Of a stretch of 64,000 bases of DNA, positions 349 to 63,082 are shown piece by piece. The DNA lies in contig SHMX01000001.1 of the NCBI GenBank assembly GCA_008080745.1, positions 372,617-436,616 of the forward strand. The letters are read 5' to 3'. The stretch comes from Candidatus Thorarchaeota archaeon (GTDB lineage: Archaea; Asgardarchaeota; Thorarchaeia; Thorarchaeales; Thorarchaeaceae). The stretch's first letter is position 1. Every line of letters begins with the position of its first letter. A program made the position numbers and the translations under genes. The notes under the pieces are model-generated. The model had not been told where the DNA came from. It saw nothing but the letters and a program-made list of their open reading frames with translations, and searched no databases.

Positions 349-2016
349 CTAAATTATACTCTCAATGCGTTTTGCAACCCATTTGGTACCAAGCATGTTC
401 AGAAATGGTCCAATTCGTGGACCCGATTTGGATGAGATGAGTATCCGATAGAGGATGACAAATGCACGTCGGGTCTTGATACCAACCTCTCTAGCTGATT
501 CAAATATCGCTGATTGAAGTTCTTCATCATCAAGAGGAGGTCCCCTGAGAATACCTAATAGGATTTCGAGGAATTTCTTATCATCCTCGGTAATAGTAGA
601 AATGATTGAATCTGGTACTTTAGGAGGTACTGCAATCTTGTCTCGTTCGGATCCAAATTCAGATACCCAGCTAAGCGCTCGATCCAATCTTTTCCGTATA
701 TGAGCAAGAACATCGTCTGAAACCACAAGCGTTTCGTATTTCTTCTGCATGACCTCTATGCATTTCGCAATCACTGGCTCGGTGCCAATCACCTCTTCTA
801 ATTGAGAGATTGTTACTGCGAACTTGAACGGAAGCTTTGGTAGATATTCGTCACGAACAGGTCTTGACTCGCTGAGTGGATACAGAAGTCTTGCTAGCTC
901 TTGCTCCTCCTCACTCACATCCTCTAAGCCATAATAGACTCGTTCAAATCGATCATAGTTATCCACCAAGTCCGGTACTCTTTCGGGTTGGATGTTAATT
1001 GTCCTTTGAAGATCTGTCTTAAGCATGAGGAATCGGTATAATTCAGGGGGTGCAATCTCAGTCCAGACCTTTGGACTGAACACTATACCAGTAGAGGTCC
1101 CCATATCCCGACCGCCAATCATTACCCATTCATAGGGAACTTTAACCGGTCCAGGCCAATCAAAGATACGACGAGACACCTCAAGTCCTGTATCATAAGA
1201 CCCCCCTTTGACTGAGTGATCTTTACCTGCGGGCTCACAGGTGACATCTAAGACATACCATTTTGCAGGCCAATCAATACGCCAAGTCAGTTTCACACGT
1301 ACAGAATCGAGGGGGACAGATGCCTTGTGTCCACAGCCCGGACACTCGAAACTGATGTGATCAGTTTCAACGTCATAATCAGTGACTCGATTTGGTTTTA
1401 TGGCCCCTTTCGCGCCAGCTTGGAATTTCCCACATTCAGGACAGAGAACCGATGCGGGGTACCAATCTTTCATTGTTTCCAGATATTGTACTCGCTGTTC
1501 ATCATTGAAGTCACTTGCTACATATTTGATCATTATCTCTCTGATTATTTCTGTTTCTTTGAGACATATTCGAACAGCTTCGAGCATCTCTGGGGTCTCA
1601 TAGAGCTTACTTGTCCAGATAATTTCAGGATCAAGCCCAAAGTCTGGAAATGTTTGAATCAGCTCGTTAGCCCAATGCGCTCCAAAGCTATCACAACAAC
1701 CGAACTCATCAGGAATGTCGCAATATGGCACACCCACCCACTCATCCAAAGAAAGAGATACACTTGGGGGAAATGCTCGAACTGGGTCATAATCATCAAC
1801 TACGAATAGTGATCGAGACTTTTTGCCTAAGTCCTTGAGTTCTCGTTTGATGACATTAGATGTAATGAGTTCTCTAACAAACCCGATATGGATACTTCCA
1901 CTAGGGCTCTTTCCAGTAGAGAGAACATACTCGTCTACATTGCGCGCTAGTACTTCATCTACAACGTCCTTAATCCAATGGATATTGAACTCGTCGGCTT
2001 CTACTTCATTAGACAT
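349..2016 (-). CDS. lysK: Class I lysyl-tRNA synthetase
   Basis: A 555-residue protein of the archaeal class I LysRS family, which charges tRNA-Lys with lysine. The motif SGSIHIGF at about 39-46 corresponds to the class I HIGH signature. A zinc-binding insertion with paired cysteines (CPECGK and, about 30 residues on, CPGCGH) follows. The position of the KMSKS loop reads GGRDMGTSTG, which lacks the usual first lysine and is therefore degenerate. The C-terminal half is the helical anticodon-binding region. I chose ATG 2016 because GAGGT sits 7 bp upstream; an in-frame TTG at 2022 lies inside that leader. The neighbours are an ABC permease upstream and a phospholipid synthase downstream, with no functional link evident. 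Confidence 0.93.
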   Translation of the reverse strand: MSNEVEADEFNIHWIKDVVDEVLARNVDEYVLSTGKSPSGSIHIGFVRELITSNVIKRELKDLGKKSRSLFVVDDYDPVRAFPPSVSLSLDEWVGVPYCDIPDEFGCCDSFGAHWANELIQTFPDFGLDPEIIWTSKLYETPEMLEAVRICLKETEIIREIMIKYVASDFNDEQRVQYLETMKDWYPASVLCPECGKFQAGAKGAIKPNRVTDYDVETDHISFECPGCGHKASVPLDSVRVKLTWRIDWPAKWYVLDVTCEPAGKDHSVKGGSYDTGLEVSRRIFDWPGPVKVPYEWVMIGGRDMGTSTGIVFSPKVWTEIAPPELYRFLMLKTDLQRTINIQPERVPDLVDNYDRFERVYYGLEDVSEEEQELARLLYPLSESRPVRDEYLPKLPFKFAVTISQLEEVIGTEPVIAKCIEVMQKKYETLVVSDDVLAHIRKRLDRALSWVSEFGSERDKIAVPPKVPDSIISTITEDDKKFLEILLGILRGPPLDDEELQSAIFESAREVGIKTRRAFVILYRILISSKSGPRIGPFLNMLGTKWVAKRIESII

Positions 2017-2061
2017 AGGCAAACCTCAATGGTCCGCCTATGATTTGTCTAATGAAATTAT

Positions 2062-3912
2062 CTATACATAAAATTCAGAGACCTTCAGTTCGTTTCTTCT
2101 CAAAAACAGGAAATAGACTGGCATGGCTGCTAATGTTACAATTACAATCAAACTAATCAGCATGACCGCAATGGATATTGGTAGAAACAGAGCTGAAGTC
2201 ACAGCTGCCTCAGGTACAAGTAGATAGACACTAAAGAATATTGCACTTAGTACCCCGGGTAAACCTGCCTTAAGACCAACATCTACACCCTCAGCAATCA
2301 TTGTCTTCGCTATGAAACTAGCTTTCGCACCAATAGATTTCATAATCACATAGTCATTAAATCTGCCAAATACGGAAACAAGAAGGTAGTTAGCAAGACT
2401 AGCAAATGCACTAATTAGTGCTATAAGTGGCAAAGGCTGCAAGAGAGTCCATACCAGATTAATTGCTCTGATGTTTTCTTCTAGAATATTCTGCTGCAAA
2501 GTTATAGTTACACCATAACTTGCTGCAACAGATTCTATTTCATCGATAACTGTAGATGAATACTCCTCTAATTGTATCAGAGCCAAATTGGGACCTGAAA
2601 AATCCCAGAGGTCTTGCATTGTAGTGAGAGGCATCATTGCAAGCATCCCACCATTTAGTATGTCGAATGCAATACCAGCTATCTCCATGGACGCTCCTTT
2701 CACCCCTAAGCGCTGGATGAGTGGGTCCTCGTACAGGGTAGTTGCTAACTCTCCTCCAATCCATACTTGTTGAGGGTCACTTACCTCTGCACCTTCAAAA
2801 TACCAATCTGAGATGGTGTTCTCCCAATCGACACCTACAATCAAAGATGAGTTGGTACGATCTTTCCCTATTCGTTCATATTGTTCTAAGGTAGGATTCC
2901 AGATGATTGCAGGCCCCTCGTACACCCGCGTATACGCAATCATACGCTGTTCTACAACGCTAACACCATCAATGTCGGCAAGATCTGCAAATAAGCTACT
3001 AGGCAATAGGTATTGATTATCTGTGAAATTGAATGTATCATCCACACGCTCACCAGAGAGGTCGTAAGCATCATAGTATACTTGCAGCAAGTCAGAGTTT
3101 CCAACTGCTATTACATTACTTCCCATGGCACGAGTGACGTACGCATTTGTAGTTGTACTGGTGATTCCTCCACCGACCCAGAGCAATGATGCTAATGAAA
3201 AACTCAGAAATAAGGATAACAATGTTCGACGAGACCCCTTTATTCTGCGTCCAGTTGCTTTTGTAGCCAACCGGAAGGGAAGGCCGAAAGTGTCCAGATA
3301 TCCAACACGACGGACTTTCATTCCTACCTCTGGATTTAGAGCAGAAACCGGTGATTCATTTACTGTGTCGTAGATAGGTTTCTGAGCAGCAACATATCCC
3401 ATGAAGAGATAGATTCCTGCTATTGCGCCTAATTGAATATATGGGAAGACAAAGGAGAATTCTGCACCGGTAATTACACTGGACAGCCAAATCATACCAA
3501 CAATGTATAATCCAAGTCCTACTGAGAGACCAATACCTATGCTGAGAAGAAGTAGAATGACAGCCTGAGCCATAAAATGGTCAAACAGGGTATCCATAAG
3601 TGTACCGACAGCCTTCATTAATCCAATATCACGCCTACGGCTAACCATCTCTAAAGAGATTGTAGATGATACGACCACACCACCCAAAATCACAGCTAAT
3701 AGGAGTGTACCCCAGATGAAGGTCTCAAAGAATACTCCAAAAGAGGAATTCAGACCTGTAGATGAAACAAAGACGGTAACATCAAGCAAAACACCTCCAA
3801 AAAGGAATAGGAAAGTGGTAGCCGCGATTACACTGGCCATTGAAAAGATGGTCAGGCCTGTTCGAAATGGTCGTCTTCGAAGGTCTTTTGAGGCGTAGTC
3901 TTGTTCAGACAC
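2062..3912 (-). CDS. ABC transporter permease, FtsX/MacB-like
   Basis: A 616-residue membrane protein. The N-terminal half has a transmembrane helix near residues 20-45, then three clustered helices (roughly 65-180). A large extracytoplasmic domain of about 250 residues comes next, followed by a C-terminal block of three helices with the FtsX-type pattern (ALISAFASLANYLLVSVFGR). Family members work with LolD/MacB ATPases as mechanotransmission pumps or lipid/peptide exporters. The preferred start is GTG 3912, with GGGAG about 9 bp upstream. An upstream in-frame TTG at 3921 is too close to that site. The start overlaps the end of the ATPase gene by 8 bp, so the two are translationally coupled. 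The substrate is unknown. Confidence 0.85.
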   Translation of the reverse strand: MSEQDYASKDLRRRPFRTGLTIFSMASVIAATTFLFLFGGVLLDVTVFVSSTGLNSSFGVFFETFIWGTLLLAVILGGVVVSSTISLEMVSRRRDIGLMKAVGTLMDTLFDHFMAQAVILLLLSIGIGLSVGLGLYIVGMIWLSSVITGAEFSFVFPYIQLGAIAGIYLFMGYVAAQKPIYDTVNESPVSALNPEVGMKVRRVGYLDTFGLPFRLATKATGRRIKGSRRTLLSLFLSFSLASLLWVGGGITSTTTNAYVTRAMGSNVIAVGNSDLLQVYYDAYDLSGERVDDTFNFTDNQYLLPSSLFADLADIDGVSVVEQRMIAYTRVYEGPAIIWNPTLEQYERIGKDRTNSSLIVGVDWENTISDWYFEGAEVSDPQQVWIGGELATTLYEDPLIQRLGVKGASMEIAGIAFDILNGGMLAMMPLTTMQDLWDFSGPNLALIQLEEYSSTVIDEIESVAASYGVTITLQQNILEENIRAINLVWTLLQPLPLIALISAFASLANYLLVSVFGRFNDYVIMKSIGAKASFIAKTMIAEGVDVGLKAGLPGVLSAIFFSVYLLVPEAAVTSALFLPISIAVMLISLIVIVTLAAMPVYFLFLRRNELKVSEFYV

Positions 3913-4654
3913 CGGAAACAACTCTCCCTTCGCGCATGACGAGATGGCGTATCTTTGGTAGTGTGATTATCTTCATATCATGGGTCATGACAATTACTGT
4001 CTTACCGACCTTATTGAGATCTAGGAGAATTTGACGGACTATCTCTGCACTCTCCTCATCCAAATTAGCAGTAGGTTCGTCAGCCAGTACGATAGCAGGA
4101 TCGTTTGCCATAGCCCGTGCTATTGCAACTCGTTGTTGTTCACCAGAACTGAGTTGCCAAGGTAGATGATCAAGACGTTCTTCAAGACCGACTCCAGCTA
4201 ACAAAGATGCTGCGTTCTTTTCTAGCTCGGACTTGGACTTATCAGAAATCTGCATCGGAAACATCACATTTTCAAGAGCAGTGAGCGTGGAGATTAAGTT
4301 GTAACTCTGGAAAATGAAACCAGTATTATTGAGTCTAAAAGTGGCTCGAAATGATTCATCATAATCAGCGATGGGCACATCCAATATGTGCACCCGACCT
4401 TCTGTTGCATAGTCGATACAACCGATAATATTGAGCATCGTTGTCTTTCCAGATCCAGAGGGTCCGGATACAACCACATACTCACCAGGCCGAATTTCCA
4501 AGTCGATATGATCTAGGGCAACTACTTCACGACGGCCTAGAGAATACTTTCTTGTAACCCCATTCATTCTTACAGCATACGCTACCTGATCTAACCCTTC
4601 AAAATCCATCGATTCATCATAATCATCGGCACCCAGAATCATATCGTCGGACAT
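3905..4654 (-). CDS. ABC transporter ATP-binding protein, LolD/MacB type
   Basis: A 249-residue ATPase subunit. Walker A is GPSGSGKTT, the signature motif is [14 protein letters not shown] (S replaces the first G of LSGGE), and Walker B is [12 protein letters not shown]. It ends with the H-loop MTHD and has the short length typical of LolD/MacB ATPases. An acidic N-terminal extension of about 25 residues precedes the core. ATG 4654 is supported by GAGAGTGGTG just upstream; the open frame extends to 4702 but that part is probably promoter. It overlaps the permease gene and should power it. The membrane-bound regulator gene lies 118 bp upstream on the same strand. Confidence 0.9.
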
Positions 4655-4772
4655 AATGACACCACTCTCATATCTAATTGAAAAGCTAAGTAAGAAATTC
4701 AATTAGACTAGTTTACGAGTCAGATTTTCTAAAAATAAAGGTAAAGGTGCAACAAAAGATGTACTAGAACAT

Positions 4773-5546
4773 CTATTGCACCATTAAACCCAACGAATCT
4801 ATTGATATCTGAGCCCATTCTGCTAATTGTACAGGTTTCTCTCTGCCAAAGACTCGAATGGTTTCAAAGACTTCTGCCTTGATCAAGCCAGATACATAAT
4901 ACGATACAAGGCTCTTATCGAGGTCAAGAGTTCTACTCAGGTCTGCCTGAGTAGTTCGACCGTTTTCAATGGTTTCGTGTACTATAGAATGAGTTGTCGG
5001 ATTTCTCAGTAGTGCTGTTAGCTCTAGTACCTTTTCATCATCTGAAAAATCAAGAGGATAGAAATGTTTTGAATTTCCCACCTTGAGGGATTTAATCATT
5101 CCAGCATCTTCTAAATTTTTTAAATGATATTGGAGTGCACCCATAGCGCAATCTAGAATTCTATGGAGACCTCTTAGATGAATTCCAGGATTCAGAGCAA
5201 TTTCCTCAACTATCCGGTCACGTAATTTTGTAGAGCTTTTTTCTTCTCTACGATCCATTGAAACTGTACCCAGAATTAGTGTTGCTAAGCTGGTAGTGCT
5301 GAAGAATGAACAGAAATCACTCTCCAGTTGGACAGACGTAATCATGTCAGAGGGAGCAGTTGACAGGGTCAAGTTGTGGAGTGAGATGTTTCTGCTAGTC
5401 GCAGATGAAATCTCATTGACCACCATTGATTCTCCTCCCGCAGACATCTGGATAAGCATGGAAACTGAGAAACCAAACATCAATGTGAACAGGAGAGAAG
5501 CCAACAATGTCTTCCTCATTCTAGTAGATAACATTCTCTTAACCAT
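4773..5546 (-). CDS. Membrane-anchored tandem winged-helix regulator
   Basis: A 257-residue protein with an N-terminal hydrophobic helix (about 12-34), a short polar segment, a second hydrophobic stretch (about 77-95) and then two winged-helix domains (about 105-165 and 170-245). The first contains the ArsR-like helix pair HLRGLHRILDCAMGALQYHL; the second has TQADLSRTLDLDKSLVSYYV. This topology places the DNA-binding part in the cytoplasm and a small sensor loop outside. It is divergent from the membrane protein gene at 5682, whose promoter carries a perfect palindrome, and lies upstream of the ABC operon. It is therefore a good candidate regulator of one or both. No ribosome binding site is seen before ATG 5546, so it may be leaderless. 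Confidence 0.75.
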   Translation of the reverse strand: MVKRMLSTRMRKTLLASLLFTLMFGFSVSMLIQMSAGGESMVVNEISSATSRNISLHNLTLSTAPSDMITSVQLESDFCSFFSTTSLATLILGTVSMDRREEKSSTKLRDRIVEEIALNPGIHLRGLHRILDCAMGALQYHLKNLEDAGMIKSLKVGNSKHFYPLDFSDDEKVLELTALLRNPTTHSIVHETIENGRTTQADLSRTLDLDKSLVSYYVSGLIKAEVFETIRVFGREKPVQLAEWAQISIDSLGLMVQ

Positions 5547-6854: not shown

Positions 6855-7403
6855 TTAACCCTTAGCGGGATAGGTCAGTTTCATTCTGAAAGAGCAATGA
6901 TCAGAGCCAGCGGCCATACAAGTTTCTTCGACTACCTCGAGTTTCTCATACTCAAGTCGATTATAATCCGTCAGATACTCCAATACTGCTTCAACAAATC
7001 CCTTCAGGAAATAACAGGAGGGTTCGTCCATCGCCATTCCTGCAGCATAGGGATTATCACGTATCTCAATGATTGCCTCCTCATCAAGCCAGAGTTTATA
7101 CAATTTTGCAATTTTTACATCACCAAAGGGGACAATTAGAGTACCTAGGGCCATCTTGATGAATTCGATGATTCCTTTGAAGTCACCAGGTGGCTTCTGT
7201 TTTCCTACTTTGAAATATTCCCGTTGTGCTTCTAGTCCTGCAAGACGACCTGCACTATAGTAGAGGTCTCTGACACGTTCTGGAAACATCACTGCAATAC
7301 GGCTACCTAATTTATTCCATGTCTTCGAGAAGAAGGCAAGCATCAATTCTCGTTCTTTAAGTCGTCCTTGCCACCATTCGATTACTTCATCATCTTTCGA
7401 CAT
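6855..7403 (-). CDS. V4R-domain (Bet3-fold) protein
   Basis: A 182-residue protein. The C-terminal half ends with the V4R-type signature EETCMAAGSDHCSFRMKL. V4R shares the NO-signalling/Golgi-transport ligand-binding fold with Bet3 of the TRAPP tethering complex. The N-terminal half is helical with no recognised motif. ATG 7403 is chosen because GGAGCTGG lies just upstream; the open frame to 7430 has no better site. It lies beside two more compact proteins with the same C-terminal Cys pattern, so the cluster is enriched for this fold. V4R proteins bind small hydrophobic ligands or mediate protein contacts; which applies here is not known. Confidence 0.7.
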   Translation of the reverse strand: MSKDDEVIEWWQGRLKERELMLAFFSKTWNKLGSRIAVMFPERVRDLYYSAGRLAGLEAQREYFKVGKQKPPGDFKGIIEFIKMALGTLIVPFGDVKIAKLYKLWLDEEAIIEIRDNPYAAGMAMDEPSCYFLKGFVEAVLEYLTDYNRLEYEKLEVVEETCMAAGSDHCSFRMKLTYPAKG

Positions 7404-7510
7404 CAGACCAGCTCCGTAATAAGAAAACAATAGAAGACTGTATTAAGTGCTTTTTGCTGATACATTCAAAATAAGAGAAAATGATAAACCGTTGTAATAA
7501 AGTAGGAAAA

Positions 7511-7534: not shown

Positions 7535-8008
7535 TTATGTTAATCGAACATTCCAAGTGCAATTATCCGACCCAGTTGCACGACACATTTCTTGGAATAC
7601 CTTGGCTTGGACACCTTTGAAATCTAGCAACGATTCCATGATGCCACTGAATATTTCGCAATATCCAAATCCACGCATACCCTCAAGATTGACCTCTTGA
7701 CACCATATGCAGTCTTCATCTGTGATTCGAACAGAGCCTCGGGCACTCTCCATATCGATGTCGTCAGGTTTCTTGTCAAATAGAATCTTGTAGGCGGTTT
7801 CCACCATTTTGGAAACATCTTCACGAGTTGTGATTGTGTCCTTTGTTTTTTCCGCTATCTCGGTATTGAGATAAATTTGGGATCCCAAATTACGACCAAT
7901 CTCACGCAGCTCTTGATTAGCCTCTTCAATACTGGTAGTTTTGGCAAGTATATCTTGGACTATGTGAGAGTATATAGAAACAAGCATTGGATTCTCTATC
8001 TTTGGCAT
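7535..8008 (-). CDS. Bet3/TRAPP-like protein (copy 1)
   Basis: A 157-residue single-domain protein. The layout follows eukaryotic Bet3 (TRAPPC3): helix with EEANQELREIGRNLGSQIY (compare the Bet3 segment NKQLDKMGFNIG), a middle helix with MVETAYKILF, then a beta segment, YCEIFSGIMESLL (Bet3: YSNLLCGVLRGAL), and a final C-x5-GSDNCTW strand as in V4R proteins. In eukaryotes this fold builds the core of a Rab-activating tethering complex. GAGGT precedes ATG 8008. The roadblock protein gene ends 25 bp upstream, so the two are an operon. The same gene pair recurs at 10407-11842. The TRAPP homology is my reading of patterns, not an alignment score. Confidence 0.72.
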   Translation of the reverse strand: MPKIENPMLVSIYSHIVQDILAKTTSIEEANQELREIGRNLGSQIYLNTEIAEKTKDTITTREDVSKMVETAYKILFDKKPDDIDMESARGSVRITDEDCIWCQEVNLEGMRGFGYCEIFSGIMESLLDFKGVQAKVFQEMCRATGSDNCTWNVRLT

Positions 8009-8033
8009 TTCATATGAACCTCTTCAATACTAT

Positions 8034-9011
8034 TTAGATTGTTTTTCCAATCATCTTCAGTCCGTGGCGTCGATATCGTGCTATGATTTGAATTACTTTT
8101 GATTTTGGAAGACTGGCTTCTTTAGCAACCTGTTCAGTGGTTCTAGTTCCATCACAGAGTTTTATGACAGGATGGTCACTTTCATCGACTTTGGACATGT
8201 CACCCTCGAATTTCGGTACCTGCACAAAACGTCCTAGTTTTCCACTTGCAGATGTTCCACCTTCACTTTCAGACACAGGAACATCAACAATTTGTTTGGA
8301 TGCAGCCCATTTTAATAATTCAACTACACGTTCATTTGGTTGAAACATCGAATCTGCAATGGCTGAAACAGACCGTTTTTCATCTACCAACATAAGAACG
8401 TCGAATCCAAAGTTTCGGTAAAGTTTTTTCATCTCTTTATACAAGTCCGAATCAAGGGACAAACAGGTAGAATATTTTTCACCACGTTTTGGAATCGTAC
8501 TAGGTTGTACCTCAAAGTTTTCGGGTGTAAGCTCGACCTCTTCTTCTTCCTCAGGTTCTGGTACTGCAGGGGTGGTATCAGGAGTAGTTTCTGCATCTGT
8601 TGAAGCAGCCTTTATAGCAATCGATTCAAGAACTTGTAAGTTGTCTTCCGAAGCTTCTTCAAATTCATCGGGTGGAGGAGGAAGCTCGATTCCTTCCAAC
8701 AATCGCAGAACATTCTTTGTCTTTGCTATTGCCAATCCAAGCTGAAGTTCAGGGACATATAACACAGTAAGAATCCAATTATCATCCACTGGTGCTAGTA
8801 CGACGAGACCCTTTTCGGTGTCAATAGTCATCAACCGCAGGTCCGCCTTGTAGAGTTTAATACTATTTTTCACACGTGGAAATAGATTCTCTGGAAACGC
8901 AAAACTGACAAATGGTCTGCCAGCTTTCGTCATTAAAGAATATCCCAATACTTGATCATCAAATCGAAGCTTAGACAAAGCACGTTCCAAATCGTTGCTC
9001 AATTCTGACAC
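8034..9011 (-). CDS. Roadblock-like / winged-helix protein (copy 1)
   Basis: A 325-residue protein. Residues 1-110 have the alternating helix/strand pattern and the line LTVLYVPELQLGLAIAKTKN typical of roadblock/LC7 (MglB-like) domains. A Pro- and Glu-rich linker follows (about 112-170), then two HTH-like segments (about 205-245, VSAIADSMF; and about 275-325, TEQVAKEASLPKSKVIQII). Roadblock domains bind small GTPases. GTG 9011 or TTG 9002 could initiate: GAGGTG lies 6 bp before the TTG, and the paralogue at 10928 starts at the equivalent residue. It is co-transcribed with the Bet3-like gene downstream. Function is inferred: a GTPase-linked scaffold or regulator. Confidence 0.7.
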   Translation of the reverse strand: MSELSNDLERALSKLRFDDQVLGYSLMTKAGRPFVSFAFPENLFPRVKNSIKLYKADLRLMTIDTEKGLVVLAPVDDNWILTVLYVPELQLGLAIAKTKNVLRLLEGIELPPPPDEFEEASEDNLQVLESIAIKAASTDAETTPDTTPAVPEPEEEEEVELTPENFEVQPSTIPKRGEKYSTCLSLDSDLYKEMKKLYRNFGFDVLMLVDEKRSVSAIADSMFQPNERVVELLKWAASKQIVDVPVSESEGGTSASGKLGRFVQVPKFEGDMSKVDESDHPVIKLCDGTRTTEQVAKEASLPKSKVIQIIARYRRHGLKMIGKTI

Positions 9012-9083
9012 CTCACGCTCTCTGTGTATGAATATAGACCTGCGTGTACACTATAACTTCCGCGTCTGACTCTCAAAAGGATT

Positions 9084-9821
9084 GTGGTAATATACTCGAA
9101 AAATATCATAATGGATAGAGAAAATTGCGCAAATGAGCCCAGGAACCAAGATTTTGTCGCGTTTTGGAAAGCATTAAGTGCTAGCTTCTATTCATTTCGA
9201 AATCAGAATAATCAGAATGGAGAAAGCAGTTTGCGAAATTTTGTTGGTGGCTTGTTTGGCGCGATAATTGGATTGATTATCAGTGTTCTCATTTTTAATC
9301 CGGTAATGATAGTATATCCATCCCCATACGATATACTTACACCACTATTACAAGGCTCGCATGTGCTTCAGGACATATCATACCTACTAAATCTCGAAAC
9401 GGCTCCAGTATATTTTATAATTTGGATCATGATAGGAGGAATTAGTGGAATTGTATCTTCATCAAAATGGAATACATTTCGTACAGCAGTTTGGACGGGT
9501 GTAGTCATAGCAATTTTTTCATTGATGTCGACTTTGCTTCAGAATCCATCTTTTTGGACTGGCAATCAGACAGAACGAAATGTTGCAATCCTTTTACAAT
9601 TCATTCAAGCAATTAGTATATCCCAAATTAGTGTGATTTCAGCAGCTCCTACAGTAATAATTAAGAAAAAAATCAGAGAAGATACCGAGAGGGAAGCTCC
9701 AAGCAGTATTGAAACCATATGTGATTGCGGTGCTGTATTCAAATCAAACCCAATCATCTGCTCGGAATGTGGAAAGGTGCTTCGTCCAGAAGCACACGGT
9801 TTGATTAGCGTTCGCGAGTGA
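9084..9821 (+). CDS. Membrane protein with C-terminal zinc ribbon
   Basis: A 245-residue protein of unknown family. Four hydrophobic segments lie at about 50-78, 110-128, 133-155 and 160-190. A cytoplasmic tail follows, with a zinc ribbon made by CDCG and CSECGK near residues 212-232. The start is uncertain: GTG 9084 has only a weak AGG nearby, and ATG 9111 has no binding site. It sits between the two roadblock/Bet3 modules, and its last 17 bp overlap the end of the convergent membrane protein gene. A link to membrane trafficking is possible only by context. Confidence 0.6.
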   Translation: MVIYSKNIIMDRENCANEPRNQDFVAFWKALSASFYSFRNQNNQNGESSLRNFVGGLFGAIIGLIISVLIFNPVMIVYPSPYDILTPLLQGSHVLQDISYLLNLETAPVYFIIWIMIGGISGIVSSSKWNTFRTAVWTGVVIAIFSLMSTLLQNPSFWTGNQTERNVAILLQFIQAISISQISVISAAPTVIIKKKIREDTEREAPSSIETICDCGAVFKSNPIICSECGKVLRPEAHGLISVRE

Positions 9822-10317
9822 TTGCTCCGCCCAATAATCCTCCAATTCCACCAACTATACACGGATAGATAATTCCTTCAAGAGCTGATTGCATAATGAT
9901 TAAGGACGAAGTCCCAAGAATCTGCCCAAAATCGGATGTTTGAATAACAAATATCAAAATCCAGGTAAGGAGGGCACCAATCGCAGCTGCAAATACTGCA
10001 GCAAACACACCTTGAATGATATCACGTGATAGAAGGCCAGCAGCAAGACCACCGATACCCCAACTTAGAAACATAAGAACAGTCCAACTGCGTGCACCTA
10101 ATCCTAGAATATCACCAAGAGTTGCACCAATTGCTGAGGGGAAAAGTACAGTACCAGTAATAGCTAATTTCAGTTCCAAGTCTGAAAATCGCAGAAAATC
10201 ATCTACTATCTGAGTTGATATTAGTTCTGCAGGCATAAAAGCTCCAAATGTAAGCACAATAAACGAAATGATAAACGCTGTAATTAGACCTAAGAGAGTC
10301 CCAGTGAGCTGACCCAA
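9805..10317 (-). CDS. Small polytopic membrane protein
   Basis: A 170-residue hydrophobic protein with about four glycine-rich helices: TLLGLITAFIISFIVLTFG, WTVLMFLSWGIGGLAAGLL, VFAAVFAAAIGALLTWILIFVI and IIYPCIVGGIGGLLGGA. No family is recognised. The TTG start at 10317 is well supported by GGAGG 7 bp upstream. A TATA-like CTATAAAT on the minus strand (10369-10376) lies about 55 bp upstream. It is encoded between the two copies of the roadblock/Bet3 module, and its 3' end overlaps the convergent zinc-ribbon membrane protein gene. Confidence 0.6.
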   Translation of the reverse strand: MGQLTGTLLGLITAFIISFIVLTFGAFMPAELISTQIVDDFLRFSDLELKLAITGTVLFPSAIGATLGDILGLGARSWTVLMFLSWGIGGLAAGLLSRDIIQGVFAAVFAAAIGALLTWILIFVIQTSDFGQILGTSSLIIMQSALEGIIYPCIVGGIGGLLGGAITRER

Positions 10318-10368
10318 GTTATTTCCTCCAAAGGAAGTTCATTCTATATTCTGCATTCGGTCAAGTAC

Positions 10369-10386
10369 ATTTATAGCTATGCTATA
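10369..10386 (-). promoter_or_regulatory. TATA box and inverted repeat upstream of 10317
   Basis: The minus-strand TATA-like CTATAAAT (10369-10376) overlaps a perfect 6+3+6 inverted repeat, TATAGC-TAT-GCTATA (10372-10386). The overlap means a bound protein would block TBP access. This may be chance in AT-rich DNA. Confidence 0.35.
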
Positions 10387-10406
10387 GATGAAATAACGGT
10401 AATAAT

Positions 10407-10910
10407 TTAGATCTGTTTTATTGTCCAAGTACAGGTTTCATCCCCAAGAGCGCTGCAAGATTCTTGATATGCATCGCCTTTGAAACCCCGAAGAGTCAAT
10501 ACTGCTTGAAACACACCGCTTACAAGATTGCAATACTGTAAACCAGGCATATCATTGATAACAACACCTTCACAGATTGCGCAATCATCATCGCTAAATT
10601 TGATTGTCATCTCATCATCGCTAATCCAAACATCGGTGAAGTCCTGTCCGGAATTGACTTTGTATGCGAGTTGCAGAGTGCTTGCAAATTCAGTAAAGCT
10701 CTGAGCATGTTGTTTTATTCGTTCTGCATAGTCCATTAGAAGATGTTCTCCCACTTTGAAGCCAATTTGTTTTAGTTTCTCATTGATTTCATCTACACTA
10801 TCACAGGTCTGAAAGAGATTATTCAATAACTCTCTCCATACTGCTTGAAACAAGGGCTTGGAAACCTTATCGATTTTCAAAGCCCAGGCTAATCTTCCCT
10901 TAATTCCCAT
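10407..10910 (-). CDS. Bet3/TRAPP-like protein (copy 2)
   Basis: A 167-residue paralogue of the protein at 7535. The Bet3-like order is clearer here: VDEINEKLKQIGFKVGEHLL then MDYAERIKQHAQSFTEFAS, resembling Bet3's GFNIG-x-RLIEDFLAR region; then LQYCNLVSGVFQAVLTL (Bet3: YSNLLCGVLRGAL), and a closing C-x5-GDETCTWTIK strand. CAIC also recalls the CIWC of copy 1, so paired cysteines are conserved between copies. ATG 10910 follows AAGGAG. It lies 17 bp downstream of the roadblock-winged helix gene, so the two are one operon. Its probable role is as a partner subunit of that protein; this is inference. Confidence 0.72.
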   Translation of the reverse strand: MGIKGRLAWALKIDKVSKPLFQAVWRELLNNLFQTCDSVDEINEKLKQIGFKVGEHLLMDYAERIKQHAQSFTEFASTLQLAYKVNSGQDFTDVWISDDEMTIKFSDDDCAICEGVVINDMPGLQYCNLVSGVFQAVLTLRGFKGDAYQESCSALGDETCTWTIKQI

Positions 10911-10927
10911 TTTCCTATATCTCCTTG

Positions 10928-11842
10928 TTATTTCGTCGATTTATCTCTACGAATGAATTTGACACTCTTTCCACGATAAGGTACTATGCTCTGGAGTGCT
11001 TGGAAATAGGTGATGCCTAGCTGATCAGCTATCTGCTGAACTGTAAGATTTCCAGAACATAATTCCAGCACGGATCGGTGTTCCTTCTTTGCTTTTTTCA
11101 GCTCTCCTTCAAAAACAGGCACCTCTACAATCTCACGAGCGCCAGGTTGTTGTTCAGAAGGACACTCAACTGATAGGACATGTTTTGAAACACACCATTT
11201 CACGATGTCAATGATTAGTTCAAGTCTTTTTGATAGAGTTTCACTGATTTTATGGACCGTCCTCTGCTCATCTACCATAAGTAGAGTGTCAAGGGCAGTA
11301 TTGGAAAATTTGAAAAGTAGCTCATCATTCAACTTCGAACCCATATTCATTGCTTCAGAATATCTATCATTCTTATGTACAACACACCCATGTTTGACTT
11401 GAATCTCTTCAAACGGAATATCTGGTGGACCTTCCTCTTCTAAATCAAATTCTGTGGATTTATCAATAGTAGGTGATTCCGTGATTGTTTCAGGAGGTTC
11501 TTGGTCAATACCTCTTGGAGGTGGGGGTAGTTCTACACCTTCGAGGGATTCAACTACATTTTGAGCCTTCTGAAGGCACATTCCTAGACTCTGGTCAGGA
11601 TTGAATAGAACCGCAAGTACCCAATTCTTATCGACCCTGGCAAGAACCACTGTTCCCTGTCCGGTCATTATATTCATGAGTCGGAGAGATTTAGAATGCA
11701 CCTCTAGAGTACCACGAATTTGGGGGATGACCTCATCAGGAATACTGAAGGTTAGAAAGGGAGCTCCAGTAGTGGTAATTAATGAATACCCACTGACACT
11801 TTCATCGTAACGAAGTTTCGTTAAAACCCGTTCTAAATCCAA
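10928..11842 (-). CDS. Roadblock-like / winged-helix protein (copy 2)
   Basis: A 304-residue paralogue of the 8034 protein with the same plan: a roadblock-like N-terminus (1-105), a shared LEGVELPPPPRG junction, an acidic linker, and two HTH-like segments (about 185-225, VHKISETLSKRLELIIDIV; and about 255-300, VQQIADQLGITYFQALQSI). The first residues DLERVLTKLRYDESVSGYS align directly with DLERALSKLRFDDQVLGYS of copy 1, which fixes the start at TTG 11842. It is the first gene of a two-gene operon with a Bet3-like protein. Roadblock folds commonly regulate Ras-like GTPases, a plausible role here. Confidence 0.7.
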   Translation of the reverse strand: MDLERVLTKLRYDESVSGYSLITTTGAPFLTFSIPDEVIPQIRGTLEVHSKSLRLMNIMTGQGTVVLARVDKNWVLAVLFNPDQSLGMCLQKAQNVVESLEGVELPPPPRGIDQEPPETITESPTIDKSTEFDLEEEGPPDIPFEEIQVKHGCVVHKNDRYSEAMNMGSKLNDELLFKFSNTALDTLLMVDEQRTVHKISETLSKRLELIIDIVKWCVSKHVLSVECPSEQQPGAREIVEVPVFEGELKKAKKEHRSVLELCSGNLTVQQIADQLGITYFQALQSIVPYRGKSVKFIRRDKSTK

Positions 11843-30713: not shown

Positions 30714-31067
30714 TCAGTTCTCGACGACTAATTCTTTAAGTTTAGATTCCCATTCATCAACGTTGCTGACACTGAATACATCCGATTCATAATTACCGTT
30801 GACGGAATAACCAACAACCAGGGATTTTCTTAGCATTCCTTCAGTGTCAACTTTCTTAATTTGGCTTAATTCGACATCAAGATCAACTCTTGTATCTTTA
30901 AACAAGAAAAATAGGAAGGATGTATGCCGGCCAAAAAGCAGTCGTTGGTCAGTTAGTACAAGGGTGCCACCCTGTTTCGTCTGTCCACCGTGGAGAACAT
31001 GTTTGGCCTTGTCTTCACGGATTATAGTTTCTTCGGGGTTCAATTTAGGAAATTCATCTTCAGGCAT
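30714..31067 (-). CDS. Small PH/GRAM-like protein
   Basis: A 117-residue protein. An N-terminal PEETIIREDKAKHVLHGGQTKQGG leads into TLVLTDQRLLFGRHT, LDVELSQIKKVDTEGML, VGYSVNGNYESDVFSV and a final helix DEWESKLKELV. The T-L-x-L-T-x-x-R-L-x-F motif is typical of bacterial/archaeal PH and GRAM domains, which bind lipids or proteins. ATG 31067 starts the recognisable protein; TTG 31076 is in frame. It ends in front of a hairpin terminator. Confidence 0.65.
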   Translation of the reverse strand: MPEDEFPKLNPEETIIREDKAKHVLHGGQTKQGGTLVLTDQRLLFGRHTSFLFFLFKDTRVDLDVELSQIKKVDTEGMLRKSLVVGYSVNGNYESDVFSVSNVDEWESKLKELVVEN

Positions 31068-31239
31068 TTTATTCAATCCCTATCTAATAGAAAATGTTTC
31101 TATCATAATATAATCGAATAGTATATAGTATATAATGTTATACCATTCGGATGTAGTTTCTCTAAATAGTTCAGTAAATTTTCAAGCATATTTGATATTA
31201 TTTCAACAAGTCTTAGTATCAGTTAGCAAGACATATAGA

Positions 31240-41670: not shown

Positions 41671-42150
41671 ATGTCGTATAAGATTTTAGAATTTAATATT
41701 GCAATTGTTGGACCAAGAGATGCTGGAAAGACAAAACTCTTTCCAGAGATTCGAGATAAAAAAAAGACTGAGAGAGAGGTTATTTTATCAGAGGTTGAAT
41801 CTGACGTTCATCTCAAGTTGCAGAGAATTCATACACCCTTTGACAAAGATTCAATTGATTTCTCAGAGTTTGATGGGATAATTGGTGTCTACGATGCCAC
41901 ATCAATCGATACTTACGAAGAGCTCAAGGAATCGCTCCTATCCATTAAACACGAGATGGAGAAAAAACCATTATTTATCGTAGGAAATAAGTTGAATCCT
42001 GGCGAACCATGCGCGACCGAGAATACAGTAACCACAGACATAGGATATAATAAAGTCATCTTCTGTATGTCAGAGTATAAATCCAGGAAGGAATTTGAGA
42101 TTCGACTTAGGTGGTTCGCTGCAGACCTTGTCAGACGGCTGGAGAGATAG
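41671..42150 (+). CDS. Degenerate Ras-like small GTPase
   Basis: A 159-residue P-loop protein. The G1 loop is GPRDAGKT, hydrophobic strands follow, and VYDATSIDTYEELKESLLSI closely matches the segment after switch II in Ras-like proteins (VYDIT-x3-SFENL). G4 is VGNKLN, in which Asp of NKxD is replaced by Asn. The switch II DxxG is not evident (TPFDKDSIDFSEFDG stands there). It may bind GTP poorly or not at all. Asgard archaea have many small GTPases, and this seems a divergent one. ATG 41671. Confidence 0.7.
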   Translation: MSYKILEFNIAIVGPRDAGKTKLFPEIRDKKKTEREVILSEVESDVHLKLQRIHTPFDKDSIDFSEFDGIIGVYDATSIDTYEELKESLLSIKHEMEKKPLFIVGNKLNPGEPCATENTVTTDIGYNKVIFCMSEYKSRKEFEIRLRWFAADLVRRLER

Positions 42151-52338: not shown

Positions 52339-53172
52339 TTAGAAAAGATAGCGAACCACATCATCTAGAATTGCATAGGTTTGTAACCGGTCGATATCCC
52401 GTTTTACATAGGGCATAGCATACTCAAATAACATCTCGCGGTAAGTGGTCTTGTCAACGTTGCTTCGAATCACATCTGCTAAAACTTTGAGTAAATCTTC
52501 CAATCCATTTCTTAGATGACGGTATGAAACATTGTAGACATCAACAGAAAGTATCTCAATACCAGTATTATCTATAGGTACAGTCTGGAGGAACTGGTAA
52601 GATTCAAGGATTGGTTCTAGTCTGTTCTGAACTTTCGACATAATCTTCTTTCGAGTTCCTTTATCTACATCAATACGTAAAAGAGCTCGAATAAGATGAC
52701 TATACACCTCAAGACAGTCCATGGACTTTCCGGCTACTAAGCATTCGTCCGTTTCTTCATATTGTGATACAAGCTCGTCTACAAATTCGGCAAAGTCATT
52801 GAAAGTGGTCGATACACCCGGCCAATGATTCAGCATAGTTTCAACGGTTTCAGTTTTTGGAACTACTTTTCTCATAAATTCATTCATCGCAAAATCCAAA
52901 ATGAATCGCATATGGGGGAGTCTTGCCCTTTTTGAAACCACCATGACAAACAATAGGTGTTCATTAGCAGACCATACATAGCGACTTGTTTCTGTGTCTA
53001 TTGTCTTGAGGGTTTCGTTAGATGCCTTGTCAATAAATGTGTGAGTTGCTGAGAGAAAGGGTGCTATTAGGTCCATATCAATTTCAATTTCAGTGTACGC
53101 TCGTGCGATAAGATTTCTACCAGTAGTTTTCTCTATCAACCAGACGCCTTGGATAGAGCGTTTATTGGACAT
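52339..53172 (-). CDS. Longin-like domain protein
   Basis: A 277-residue protein. Residues 1-105 show a longin-type layout: IQGVWLIEKTTGRNLIARAY, then DLIAPFLSATHTFIDKA, TIDTETSRYVWSANEHLLFVMVVS, and a long helix RLPHMRFILDFAMNEFMRKV. This matches the start of many Asgard and eukaryotic longin proteins (SNARE, AP small/mu chains). The rest (110-277) is helical, with no known fold. Longin domains bind small GTPases or tether coats. ATG 53172. Confidence 0.65.
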   Translation of the reverse strand: MSNKRSIQGVWLIEKTTGRNLIARAYTEIEIDMDLIAPFLSATHTFIDKASNETLKTIDTETSRYVWSANEHLLFVMVVSKRARLPHMRFILDFAMNEFMRKVVPKTETVETMLNHWPGVSTTFNDFAEFVDELVSQYEETDECLVAGKSMDCLEVYSHLIRALLRIDVDKGTRKKIMSKVQNRLEPILESYQFLQTVPIDNTGIEILSVDVYNVSYRHLRNGLEDLLKVLADVIRSNVDKTTYREMLFEYAMPYVKRDIDRLQTYAILDDVVRYLF

Positions 53173-59539: not shown

Positions 59540-61096
59540 TTGACACGAGATACAGATCGGGAAACTTGTAAGATATGTAGAGATGCGAGAGCTACACATC
59601 TCTGTCAAGGTTGTGGCGAACTACTTTGTTTGGAATGTCAAGGAACTAGATCTAGTGTGTTCTATGTCTGTAACGAATGTCATCATGTTCTTGGAACCCC
59701 CCAACCAGGCGAATCTTTTGAGAAATGTCCAGAGTGCGATTCTGACGATCTTGGTGAAGGAAAACGAGTCGAAAACATATGTCCTCGCTGTCATTCCACA
59801 GAAACAATTGTTCTTGAAGAAAAGAGGAGAACTTTGACAATGAATATGCGTCATGCGATACAGAGTTTATCCTATGGCCATACTAAACTTCGAGAGTTCC
59901 AAAGTAGATTTACAAGTGCAAAAAGACTGCTTGTATCACTAAGGATGGCTAATTTCCTTCATTATCATTGGCTAGAGAGCAAGATAGAAGATATGCAAGA
60001 AGAAATCCCAGCAGTTAAAACTAGAATTGCTAGTCAAGCAGAGATAGTTGCGAAACAGATCGCGGCAGAAACGAAGGGTCTAATGGATTATAATGACTGG
60101 GAGCCGTCACAGTTTCCTTTCATCGAAGGAGTAACCAATAGGGTAAATGAGCTTGGAAAACAATACAGAAGAAATGTTGATGAGTCGCTTCAACGAATAT
60201 TATTGAAAATAGAAGAATTAGAAAAACAACTAGATGGATTGAATTATTATAGAAATGAATTTAGCGATTTTTATGAATATGCTGAGCTATCAGTAAATGA
60301 ATTACCAGTTTGTGCGTTTCCTGATGTAAAACTAACAGGAAGCGACTTCATAAAAGCAGACAAGTCTACTGGTACCCTTTTTATCACAAACAAGCGTGTT
60401 GTCTTCATAGCTGAAACTGGAATAGTGAGAAAAAAGACCGATATTGTATTTGATTATCCTCTAATCTACCTGAATTCAATAGGAGAGGATGGAAGGATAC
60501 GAAAGAGAGTTGTACTAAAATTCAAACAGGGAGAGGTCAAAATAACATGCTGTGAGCAAACTGAGCGGGTGTTACCAGACTATATCGAGATTGCTAGAAA
60601 ATTCGATAAATATATCCAAACCGATCTCCAAAGAGTCAGAAAACTTGAGCAGGGAGACTTGAATATTAGTGAGGTCAGAATGAAAATTGAGAACCTTGTC
60701 TACTCGCTCTTAGCACCAACCAGAGCAATGCGAGATACAAAACAATCAGAACGCCGGTCTTCCGAATACACTAGACCATGGGATACAGGAAGAATTGTCA
60801 ACCCTTCAGGATATGACAGGCAGCCAAGAAGAAACTTTAGAGACCATCTTGAAGGAACCATTAGTAGGGGCAGTCAGGATGCAACACAGTATCGAAGAAA
60901 CCCCGAAATCAGAGGATTAGAACGGGAACTCCATAATCTAGAGAATGCCATGAGGAATATGGTTCATCTTTTCAGAGATGGAAGAATGGTCCCAGAAGAG
61001 TTCATCCGGAGATACAAGAGTTTGATGAGGGACTCTTTCTTTACCAAGAAGCGAATTAGCGATATTACCAGAGAAACTCAAGATTTCCGATGGTGA
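59540..61096 (+). CDS. B-box zinc finger / coiled-coil / PH-like protein (ESCRT neighbour)
   Basis: A 518-residue protein with a mixed eukaryote-like architecture. The N-terminus is a B-box-type finger (CKICRDARATHLCQGCGELL, CLEC, VCNECHH), followed by two zinc-ribbon-like pairs (CPECDSDDLG, CPRCHSTE). A long helical region (95-250) suggests a coiled coil. Residues about 260-360 show a PH/GRAM pattern (GTLFITNKRVVFIAETG, VVLKFKQGEVKITCC). The C-terminus (470-515) has a SHOCT-like helix pair. B-box plus coiled coil is the core layout of TRIM proteins; no RING is seen. TTG 59540 has GGAGG 8 bp upstream. Being next to ESCRT genes, it may be an adaptor; this is inference. Confidence 0.7.
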   Translation: MTRDTDRETCKICRDARATHLCQGCGELLCLECQGTRSSVFYVCNECHHVLGTPQPGESFEKCPECDSDDLGEGKRVENICPRCHSTETIVLEEKRRTLTMNMRHAIQSLSYGHTKLREFQSRFTSAKRLLVSLRMANFLHYHWLESKIEDMQEEIPAVKTRIASQAEIVAKQIAAETKGLMDYNDWEPSQFPFIEGVTNRVNELGKQYRRNVDESLQRILLKIEELEKQLDGLNYYRNEFSDFYEYAELSVNELPVCAFPDVKLTGSDFIKADKSTGTLFITNKRVVFIAETGIVRKKTDIVFDYPLIYLNSIGEDGRIRKRVVLKFKQGEVKITCCEQTERVLPDYIEIARKFDKYIQTDLQRVRKLEQGDLNISEVRMKIENLVYSLLAPTRAMRDTKQSERRSSEYTRPWDTGRIVNPSGYDRQPRRNFRDHLEGTISRGSQDATQYRRNPEIRGLERELHNLENAMRNMVHLFRDGRMVPEEFIRRYKSLMRDSFFTKKRISDITRETQDFRW

Positions 61097-61738
61097 TTAC
61101 ATCCCAAGTTCTTTCTCTAGCGATTTAATCTCGTCTTCTAATTCTTCTGTTTCCGAAACTGGGCCTGCTGGAGCCGCTTCAGCAACTCCCGCTTCACGAT
61201 CAATTTCAGCCATTGCTGCTGTGAGGTCATCAGTAGTAACTCGACTTTCACCTGTCGAATCAAATGCTTCTTCAGTGATACTGCTCTCTATCTCAAATTC
61301 TTCCAGTCTTCGAGATATTTCATCTATGTTCTCAACAACCTTCGTAGCGTCAGTAGAGTCACCAAGAAGACCTAATATTTTGGATACACGTTCTACAATC
61401 TTGGTTGCTTGTGCAGTGGTCTGTGCACGAGTCACATGTGCAAGTATCTTTAGAAGCTGTAATCGAGACCTATCGATAGATAAAGCATATCTTCTGAAAC
61501 GAACCATCTCTGTTGCATACATTCGATAGGCATCAGTACGTCCCTCTTTCCGAGCACGGACAGCACGAGCCTTAACATCGCGTTCTTCTTTTTCCAATTT
61601 GTTGCGTTGGCGTTCCAGTTGTTTTGTCATGATACGTAGCTGACTTGTTACTTCTGCAATGTCGGGTTTCTTTCGACCCCATGAAAATGCCTTTTTTAAC
61701 GCATCCAAGAATATCACCATCGGGAAGGTATCTTCCAT
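61097..61738 (-). CDS. ESCRT-III (Snf7/CHMP-family) protein
   Basis: A 213-residue Snf7-domain protein. The basic alpha-1 region (LDALKKAFSWGRKKPDIAEV) and long helices (LRIMTKQLERQRNKLEKEER, KEGRTDAYRMYATEMVRFRR) are followed by an acidic second half with a C-terminal helix (TEELEDEIKSLEKELGM), a likely MIT-interacting motif for the adjacent Vps4. It would polymerise to cut membranes. The open frame starts at 61804, but that part contains a TATA-like element. ATG 61738 or 61720 is preferred. The stop abuts that of the B-box gene. Confidence 0.88.
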   Translation of the reverse strand: MEDTFPMVIFLDALKKAFSWGRKKPDIAEVTSQLRIMTKQLERQRNKLEKEERDVKARAVRARKEGRTDAYRMYATEMVRFRRYALSIDRSRLQLLKILAHVTRAQTTAQATKIVERVSKILGLLGDSTDATKVVENIDEISRRLEEFEIESSITEEAFDSTGESRVTTDDLTAAMAEIDREAGVAEAAPAGPVSETEELEDEIKSLEKELGM

Positions 61739-61852
61739 CCAAAGGTATGAGGCAGTGCGTTTAAACCTTCGCAGAGAGGAGTATGATAAAGCAATTACAC
61801 TCATAACACGGAAGGTTTTAACCTGTTCAGAGCTTTGAAGTAGTGAGTAATC
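61739..61852. promoter_or_regulatory. Divergent promoter between ESCRT-III and Vps4
   Basis: About 110 bp separate the two starts. On the minus strand CTTTATCATA (near 61782-61793) is TATA-like. A 5+2+5 inverted repeat AGGTT-TT-AACCT (61813-61824) lies on the vps4 side. Both genes are probably co-regulated from here. Confidence 0.4.
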
Positions 61853-63079: not shown

Positions 63080-63082
63080 ATC

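Follow-up and report, generated by a model that had tools for sequence, protein, structure and literature searches.

Roadblock–winged-helix and TRAPPC3-like gene pairs, duplicated in Thorarchaeota, as a candidate TRAPP-core-like platform for small GTPases in Asgard archaea

Two genes for proteins of the roadblock type, each placed directly before a gene for a TRAPPC3/Bet3-like protein, lie within 4.3 kb in a 64,000-nucleotide stretch of a Candidatus Thorarchaeota genome (GenBank assembly GCA_008080745.1, contig SHMX01000001.1, positions 372,617–436,616; this whole stretch is called the window below). The genes are named RbA and TrA in one pair and RbB and TrB in the other. The locus raises the question of whether the roadblock protein is the partner of archaeal TRAPPC3, and whether such a partnership resembles the core of the eukaryotic TRAPP complex, where one TRAPPC3 subunit stands on either side of the longin pair TRAPPC1/C4 (PMC10152722). 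The reading preferred here, with a confidence modestly beyond an even chance, is that the pairs encode a TRAPP-core-like assembly of a roadblock dimer and TRAPP dimers, serving as a membrane platform for small GTPases.

The two gene pairs and their products

In both pairs the Rb gene lies upstream of the Tr gene in open frames of the minus strand, with a stop-to-start gap of 25 nucleotides in pair A and 17 in pair B, in agreement with the original prediction of two operons of the same gene order. The predicted duplication is borne out as well, the products being paralogous over nearly their full length (BLASTP: RbA and RbB, 33% over 316 amino acids, E 3e-61; TrA and TrB, 24% over 153 amino acids, E 7e-27). 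The likeness of the roadblock proteins had been placed in the N-terminus and linker; it spans Rb from end to end, and conservation is lowest in the linker. TrA and TrB are the sole PF04051 matches over the cut-off in the source genome (3.16 Mb, 98% complete), and RbA and RbB are the sole full-length proteins of their kind found there by phmmer with RbB as the query.

Table 1. Genes of the two pairs and their immediate neighbours (window coordinates; aa, amino acids)
Gene	Predicted product	Coordinates	Strand	Evidence
TrA	TRAPPC3-like, 157 aa	7535..8008	-	PF04051 E 1.4e-11; phmmer to PDB 7YH3/7YH2
RbA	Roadblock residues 1–114, acidic linker, two winged-helix-like domains, 325 aa	8034..9011	-	AlphaFold2 model
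TrB	Second TRAPPC3-like, 167 aa, N-terminal MGxKGxxAW signature	10407..10910	-	PF04051 E 6.6e-7
RbB	RbA paralogue, roadblock and two winged helices, 304 aa	10928..11842	-	BLASTP to RbA
V4R	Third gene of TRAPP/V4R fold, directly downstream of TrA	6855..7430	-	PF02830 E 1.4e-10
Mem1	Membrane-protein-like, C-terminal zinc-ribbon-like part	9084..9821	+	Open reading frame; weak Zn_ribbon_3
Mem2	DUF5518-like, membrane-protein-like	9805..10317	-	PF17647 E 5e-4, below cut-off

Both Tr products exceed the curated PF04051 cut-off of 27 bits (TrA 44.8, TrB 29.6) and find TRAPPC3/Bet3 matches, which upholds the Bet3 homology proposed for them. Residues 1–156 of TrA matched the PDB chains 7YH3 (E 9e-81) and 7YH2 (E 9e-80) in a phmmer search, and these were the only PDB chains below E 1e-3 for TrA as a single query; on this comparison TrA is the orthologue of the crystallised Thorarchaeota TRAPPC3. 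TrB as a single query reached eukaryotic TRAPPC3 (E 2e-6). A profile of the B-type proteins matched TRAPPC3 chains at E 2e-18 to 2e-9 (Naegleria 2e-18, 3KXC 2e-12) and yeast Bet3 at 8e-11, as against 2e-4 for TRAPPC5 and 9e-4 to 1e-3 for ZGC 92866, the Trs31 partner in 2J3R; no TRAPPC6 chain was listed up to E 10 in this search of the PDB. By sequence, TrB and its Asgard relatives match TRAPPC3/Bet3 specifically, closer than TRAPPC5/C6. Cysteines 100, 103 and 150 occur in all 42 rows of TrA and TrB, Cys 117 in 41 and Cys 142 in 35, which is in line with the four-Cys zinc site published for the TrA orthologue. An N-terminal signature of the MG[IVL]KG type was found in 17 rows from 11 Asgard families, TrB included, and is absent from TrA. 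Its MGxKGxxAW form at the start of TrB (10881–10910) may serve in binding to a membrane or a partner. In the Tr tree (51 rows) TrA grouped with the tandem TRAPPs of family f27 and with locus L129 (here and below, f denotes an Asgard family, L a locus and G a genome); the tree does not fix the age of the A/B split, because this long-branch grouping was flagged as possibly false.

The AlphaFold2 model of RbA (RbA and 54 further rows; mean predicted local distance difference test score 86, predicted template-modelling score (pTM) 0.41) comprises a roadblock fold at residues 2–105, a helix at 118–136, a low-confidence linker at about 138–152 and two helical winged-helix-like parts at about 161–247 and 260–325. 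Comparison of residues 1–114 gave Z 13.4 with LAMTOR2/3 (p14/MP1, 1SKO) and likewise 13.4 with the MK-D1 roadblock, 12.5 with MglB (6HJM) and 12.3 with the Thorarchaeota roadblock 7F8M, the fold being of the alpha-beta-beta-alpha-beta-beta-beta-alpha order. The Pfam family Robl_LC7 was not matched over its cut-off by RbA (14.6 bits against 23, E 0.028) and not at all by RbB; at E ≤ 0.1 it was found in five of 44 Rb family members, with 0.028 the best value. The call of a roadblock–winged-helix protein, weakly matched in Pfam, is thus confirmed for RbA by model comparison, and the domain can be described as a predicted roadblock of divergent sequence. Profile searches of the PDB with the Rb alignment, and with an alignment of the longin–winged-helix proteins of f27, found nothing significant (Bet5 only at E 0.57).

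The module had been supposed to consist strictly of two genes. It does not, because V4R, a third member of the superfamily, adjoins TrA; and the two pairs are not contiguous, because Mem1 and Mem2 intervene on opposite strands. Mem1 is not counted as a pair member. The V4R gene scores 41.5 bits with PF02830 (cut-off 31), and its AlphaFold2 model (pTM 0.76) is equally close to the MopR/PoxR sensor domains and to Bet3/TRAPPC3, with Z up to 14.8.

Conservation of the pairing in Asgard archaea

PF04051 matches were found in 42 of the 47 genomes of the window's family, with two copies in 33; the five genomes with no match are 52–92% complete. The Rb gene directly precedes the Tr gene on the same strand in all 38 A loci in which both frames are readable (gaps of 13–39 nucleotides) and in all 34 readable B loci, window included (gaps of 0–27 nucleotides in 30 and 54–209 in four). 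The named relatives (37 loci) are Thorarchaeota metagenome-assembled genomes, among them two that bear the label Lokiarchaeota and two labelled simply 'archaeon'. Loci long enough to show it share the order LysRS-FtsX-ABC-HTH-V4R-TrA-RbA-Mem1-Mem2-TrB-RbB-PfkB, with V4R present in 38 loci of the family, that of the window among them, and Mem1 and Mem2 in 37 each. Exceptions are losses of module B and small gaps (PfkB was not detected in L044). Module A is intact in 38 of 38 loci; module B is absent from L040 and, within the fetched stretch, from L067, both B genes are broken in L044, and TrB of L075 has one early stop. Chance or artefact as the source of the pairing was rejected, because order, strand and spacing recur throughout the Thorarchaeota family.

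Sequence conservation was compared as mean pairwise identity among the 26 genomes that have all five genes (Mem1 had 11 rows; LysRS and GS yielded no value). The roadblock domain of RbA reached 89.8%, TrA 70.7%, TrB 71.3%, V4R 77.0%, the first and second winged helices 64.4% and 58.4%, and Mem2 58.7%; the neighbours ABC, FtsX, PfkB, HTH, DUF72 and SAP lay at 46–63% (16–26 genomes). No other stretch measured in the cluster is as constrained as the roadblock domain of RbA.

Of 227 Asgard genomes searched with a TRAPP profile of 18 rows, 142 gave a match at E 1e-3. The neighbours of most strong TRAPP loci were fetched, the weaker second loci of G064, G065 and G067 being left out, and a partner was defined as a winged-helix gene on the same strand within 300 nucleotides. 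Among the 31 non-Thorarchaeota TRAPP loci of at least 95 bits, 23 have such a partner (that of L147 is cut at its N-terminus). The conservation of the pair in other Asgard genomes, which had been proposed as a check, thus holds inside and outside the family. In 15 of the 23 partners, from families f2, f4, f14, f24, f25 and f27, the N-domain is roadblock- or longin-like, an assignment made from weak Pfam matches and from reading of the sequence (Sybindin 0.028 in L124, Fuz_longin 0.0015, Longin 0.0014). The f27 order is TRAPP-TRAPP-(longin–winged helix), and two genomes add a second (longin–winged helix)-TRAPP locus elsewhere. The eight strong loci without a partner are those of f3 and f13, two of f14 (one with a degenerate Rb), L128, which is cut by a contig end, and L142, a fusion. 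No separate winged-helix partner stands within 300 nucleotides at the weaker TRAPP/V4R loci L084, L085, L131, L138, L145, L150–L156, L159 and L160; L161 and L162, a second locus type of Thorarchaeota that falls outside the 31-locus count, have one, and L129, likewise outside the count, is itself a fusion.

Natural fusions, which go beyond what had been predicted, were also found: L142 (f28) encodes a 300-amino-acid longin–TRAPP protein in which no winged helix was detected, and L129 (f29) a protein of 497 amino acids in which an N-terminal part X is followed by a winged helix and TRAPP. Single frames in G226, G166 and G003 combine Sybindin and winged-helix matches, none of them beside a TRAPP gene in the fetched stretch, and longins of f13 reach Sybindin at 1.7e-6 and 2.7e-5; together with the weak L124 match, this likens the longin partners to the longin family of TRAPP. 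A genome-wide winged-helix search of 25 genomes placed 14 of its 20 best matches (E ≤ 3.1e-15) beside TRAPP and six elsewhere, its query having been built from TRAPP-adjacent proteins, so that the only non-seed members of the 14 are G077, G166 and G178, close relatives of the seeds.

Several loci of other families have arrangements of their own. Directly downstream of a pair in L130 (f12), whose winged-helix protein has a Cys-containing N-domain, lies an HMG-CoA reductase gene (Pfam was tested in this locus only), and in L133, L137, L139, L157 and L158 a similar pair is followed by frames resembling it; a link of this order to isoprenoid lipid synthesis is possible. L131 and L138 (f12) have a further TRAPP-like gene after a protein of 416–423 amino acids, with a weak SPFH/Band-7 match in L131. 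In f13 a roadblock gene and then a MetOD1/V4R-like gene stand opposite a gene of the Sybindin-type longin (L163:3946–5817, L164:4030–5711). L151 (f14) encodes a KaiC–V4R fusion of 422 amino acids, and in L155, L159 and L160 (f20) a short TRAPP-like gene overlaps that of a 493–497-amino-acid protein with a second TRAPP-like match.

Genes of Ras-family GTPases were found beside related pairs. In L124 (f27) three of them (1244–3391, E 3e-40 to 5e-41) precede the longin–winged-helix gene (3570–4199) and the TRAPP gene (4298–4861) on one strand; in a second f27 genome two (E 1e-42 and 6e-42) precede a longin–winged-helix and a TRAPPC3-type gene, again on one strand (L125:1581–4578). In the source genome itself, on contig C6, a GTPase gene (E 1.7e-26), a gene for a winged-helix protein with a Cys-containing N-domain and a V4R/TRAPP-like gene share one strand (L161:3957–5626), and G181 has the same triplet (L162:3038–4674, GTPase E 1.3e-26). 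In L084 (f29; 3–2838) two Ras-family genes (E 1.6e-42 and 5.6e-44) are divergent to a frame of 420 amino acids that ends in TRAPP/V4R. The source genome has 33 Ras-family matches over the cut-off.

Further genes were noted in the window. An ESCRT cluster (59540–63805) comprises Snf7/ESCRT-III (61097–61804, E 9e-8), a Vps4-like AAA protein with MIT and Vps4_C matches (61853–63079) and an ESCRT-II subunit (63083–63805, E 5e-13), with a protein carrying weak B-box and PH matches beside them (59540–61096). A TPR protein of 598 amino acids at 22831–24627 matches alpha-SNAP (PF14938, E 7.6e-16). Weak matches of the Vps36 type (30714–31076, E 0.004) and to the MON1/FUZ longin (52339–53172, E 0.005) were also noted, as was a degenerate frame of a small Ras-like GTPase (41671–42150, Ras E 0.001, below the cut-off), which lies 30 kb away from the two pairs.

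Proposed function and alternative explanations

In the proposed mechanism each gene pair would encode both halves of one TRAPP-core-like complex. The roadblock domain of Rb would form dimers, RbA/RbA or RbA/RbB, shaped as the flat platform typical of roadblock and longin dimers. By analogy with TRAPP, this dimer would be central, and dimers of the TRAPPC3-like TrA and TrB, and perhaps of the V4R protein, would sit on its flanks. The winged-helix domains and the acidic linker may dock regulators or a TRAPP subunit. The TRAPP subunits would supply a zinc-braced hydrophobic pocket in which a lipid might bind, allowing lipid or membrane to be sensed, from which we infer a membrane or lipid role of the complex. 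A face of the roadblock dimer would take a small GTPase, and the whole would act as a membrane-linked, ligand-responsive GTPase platform. A physical complex of roadblock or longin with TRAPP is likely, because the gene pairing occurs in at least seven families and is accompanied by two kinds of fusion. Regulation of a GTPase by the complex is close to an even call, leaning towards yes; it is rated higher because GTPase genes adjoin related winged-helix–TRAPP pairs.

A number of observations weigh against this proposal. On the side of the pairing, L074 and L077 keep an intact RbB beside a TrB remnant; the tandem TRAPPs of f3 and f13 have no winged-helix partner beside them, and roadblock–winged-helix genes of these families stand at other loci; eight of the 23 partners, all from f12, begin with another, Cys-containing domain in which neither roadblock nor longin was seen; and Sybindin gave no match at E 1 in L125, whose identity to L124 is 87%. 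The high constraint of RbA is not shared by the roadblock domain of RbB, whose identity is 66.0%. Residual correlations of mirror trees (22 genomes) were without an excess within pairs, at 0.11 for TrA-RbA and 0.41 for TrB-RbB; the highest value, 0.59, was that of V4R-TrA, and the unrelated HTH-Mem2 gave 0.52. On the side of the GTPase, neighbours of this kind were found at five of 94 TRAPP loci scanned with a profile built from the GTPases of four such loci, the other 89 having none in the fetched stretch, and no Ras-family match over the cut-off was found within about 21 kb of the window pairs on the same contig. The L161 triplet lacks TrA and TrB, its V4R-like protein is below the V4R cut-off and its winged-helix protein has no visible roadblock or longin. 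The Asgard TRAPP profile ends with the fold: B-type matches stop at position 164–167 of 168, and yeast Bet3 (193 amino acids), aligned only to residue 178, extends 15 residues past the aligned stretch; the C-terminus of Bet3 has a part in opening the pocket of the Rab (PMC10152722). On the side of the membrane, the Asgard proteins were diffuse and not membrane-bound in HeLa cells, and ligand binding was favoured for Asgard TRAPP/V4R (Tran et al. 2024, PMC10933270).

The last point belongs to the main rival explanation, in which TRAPP/V4R dimers sense a hydrophobic metabolite and switch a winged-helix protein that binds DNA or protein, the roadblock serves only for dimerisation and no GTPase is involved. 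Bacterial V4R domains are ligand-binding and regulatory (PMC2253512). The V4R gene directly downstream, with a modelled fold as near to the phenol sensors MopR/PoxR as to TRAPPC3, suits this explanation, as do the conserved Cys set, the HMG-CoA reductase gene behind the L130 pair and the winged helix common to all 23 partners, which were counted by that domain and include the eight of f12 without a visible roadblock or longin. The second winged helix is net positive (mean charge +5.3 in A, +4.0 in B). The first is net negative, though domain charge does not discriminate a DNA-binding winged helix, because a Pfam-supported HTH protein of the window (4773–5546) scores 0 and −1. What speaks against a ligand-gated switch is that constraint on the roadblock domain of RbA far exceeds that on either winged helix, that the L142 fusion joins longin and TRAPP with no detected winged helix, and that GTPase genes stand directly before the winged-helix–TRAPP pair in four loci. 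It seems that this rival is rather unlikely.

Another explanation takes Rb as the working unit of a platform like NPRL2/NPRL3 of GATOR1, perhaps a GTPase-activating protein for Rag-like GTPases, with TRAPP as an accessory ligand sensor. 'NPRL2-like longin domain' is a named asCOG class in Lokiarchaeia (PMC9834061). LAMTOR2/3 is among the best matches of the roadblock domain, tied with an Asgard roadblock. Full-length RbA also matched SEA/GATOR1 chains in Foldseek (E 1.7e-6 to 2.6e-4 over 348–424 columns), which we take to be NPRL2/NPRL3. The likeness is limited to domain order, because the template-modelling (TM) score is about 0.2 and the root-mean-square deviation (rmsd) 17–23 Å (TM 0.20 and rmsd 22 Å for the best E). 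Since the Thorarchaeota domain is moreover a predicted roadblock and not a longin, and the GTPases beside related pairs match Ras best and Rag weakly, this explanation is improbable. Co-transcription of genes whose two small products serve one signalling response, the genes happening to be kept in an operon without a physical complex, would suit the unlinked genes of f3 and f13 and the intact RbB beside the TrB remnants of L074 and L077, and is very improbable given the fusions in two lineages and the pair kept in at least seven families.

The TRAPP-core-like platform remains the preferred reading. As for the TRAPP-like pair of the original prediction, its TRAPP half stands. Its roadblock half is weaker: the Thorarchaeota partner is a roadblock with tandem winged helices, not the Sybindin-type longin pair of the TRAPP core, no Sybindin match was found at E ≤ 0.05 in the source genome, and the full-length Foldseek matches include GATOR1/SEA.

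Relation to known systems

TRAPP-domain proteins of Asgard archaea had been reported, as the original prediction acknowledged: orthologues of TrA were crystallised (7YH2/7YH3) and other roadblocks solved (Tran et al. 2024, PMC10933270). The source genomes of these crystals, SMTZ1-45 (L118) and AB_25 (L088), carry both Rb-Tr pairs. The roadblock protein crystallised in that work (KXH72322.1) differs from RbA and RbB, and no description of the adjacent roadblock–winged-helix gene or of the second pair was found in the text of PMC10933270 available here, 'winged' being absent from its main text. The same paper models one Heimdall longin–TRAPPC3 fusion, and states that in MK-D1 the GTPase genes as a rule share no operon with those for roadblock, longin or TRAPPC3 proteins, and that co-expression of GTPases and their regulators is not chiefly achieved through operons. 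TRAPP homologues are mentioned as known in PMC10307638, PMC12872458 touches on these subjects solely in its reference list, where Tran et al. is cited, and PMC12993045 does not mention them. No report of the pairing of roadblock/longin–winged helix with TRAPP was found in open-licence PMC text (preprints, supplements and subscription papers lying outside it). A known family without novelty was therefore rejected as a description of the locus, only the TRAPP half being published in that text. Asgard TRAPPC3 is known; its conserved, duplicated and sometimes fused pairing with roadblock/longin–winged-helix proteins, and the runs with GTPase genes, appear to be new.

We know of no pre-eukaryotic TRAPP half-complex. 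The crystallised Asgard TRAPPC3, for which no partner is named in the text available here, gains a candidate in a conserved neighbour gene that occurs in the same genomes from which the crystallised proteins came; the second, duplicated pair, the single-chain fusions elsewhere and the candidate GTPase substrates next door in f27 strengthen testability, and TRAPP-like regulation of GTPases in archaea becomes directly testable, the TRAPP side having already been expressed and crystallised. The recurrence of such pairs, fusions and GTPase neighbours in other Asgard archaea suggests that the partnership at the heart of a eukaryotic traffic-control complex may have arisen before eukaryotes. A bolder and tentative idea, which we consider doubtful, is that the pair of roadblock/longin–winged helix and TRAPPC3 represents the ancestral half of the TRAPP core. 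On this idea Asgard archaea would already make a roadblock/longin dimer with TRAPPC3-type dimers on its flanks for the control of small GTPases at the membrane, the GTPases being encoded in f27 within the run itself; Thorarchaeota would have doubled the pair much as proto-eukaryotes did on the way to the two-fold TRAPP octamer; and the winged-helix partners would also be kin of GATOR1 NPRL2/3, which would give two GTPase-control systems one archaeal root.

The V4R sensors PoxR, MopR and DmpR share with the Asgard proteins the TRAPP/V4R fold and a genomic link to winged-helix domains, and Podar et al. (2008, PMC2253512) proposed that TRAPP descends from V4R. They differ in that the Asgard genes encode separate proteins paired with roadblock or longin, in which no AAA+ activator domain was seen. 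NPRL2/NPRL3 of GATOR1 and the SEA complex likewise have a small N-domain of the roadblock/longin type followed by a winged helix, and are matched at the 3Di level; unlike them, Rb has a predicted roadblock and not a longin as its N-domain, and no whole-chain superposition was obtained. The GATOR1 and SEA proteins are not known to have a TRAPP partner. Compared with the eukaryotic TRAPP core, the Thorarchaeota partner is a roadblock with two winged helices and not a bare longin, and Asgard TRAPP keeps its Cys set and has a C-terminus shorter than that of yeast Bet3. The likeness to this core lies in the TRAPPC3-specific similarity of the B-type TRAPPs, in the partner of roadblock/longin fold and in the Ras-family GTPase neighbours of f27. 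It lies also in the duplicated halves, since growth from a single half through gene duplication has been proposed as the origin of the TRAPP octamer (PMC10152722).

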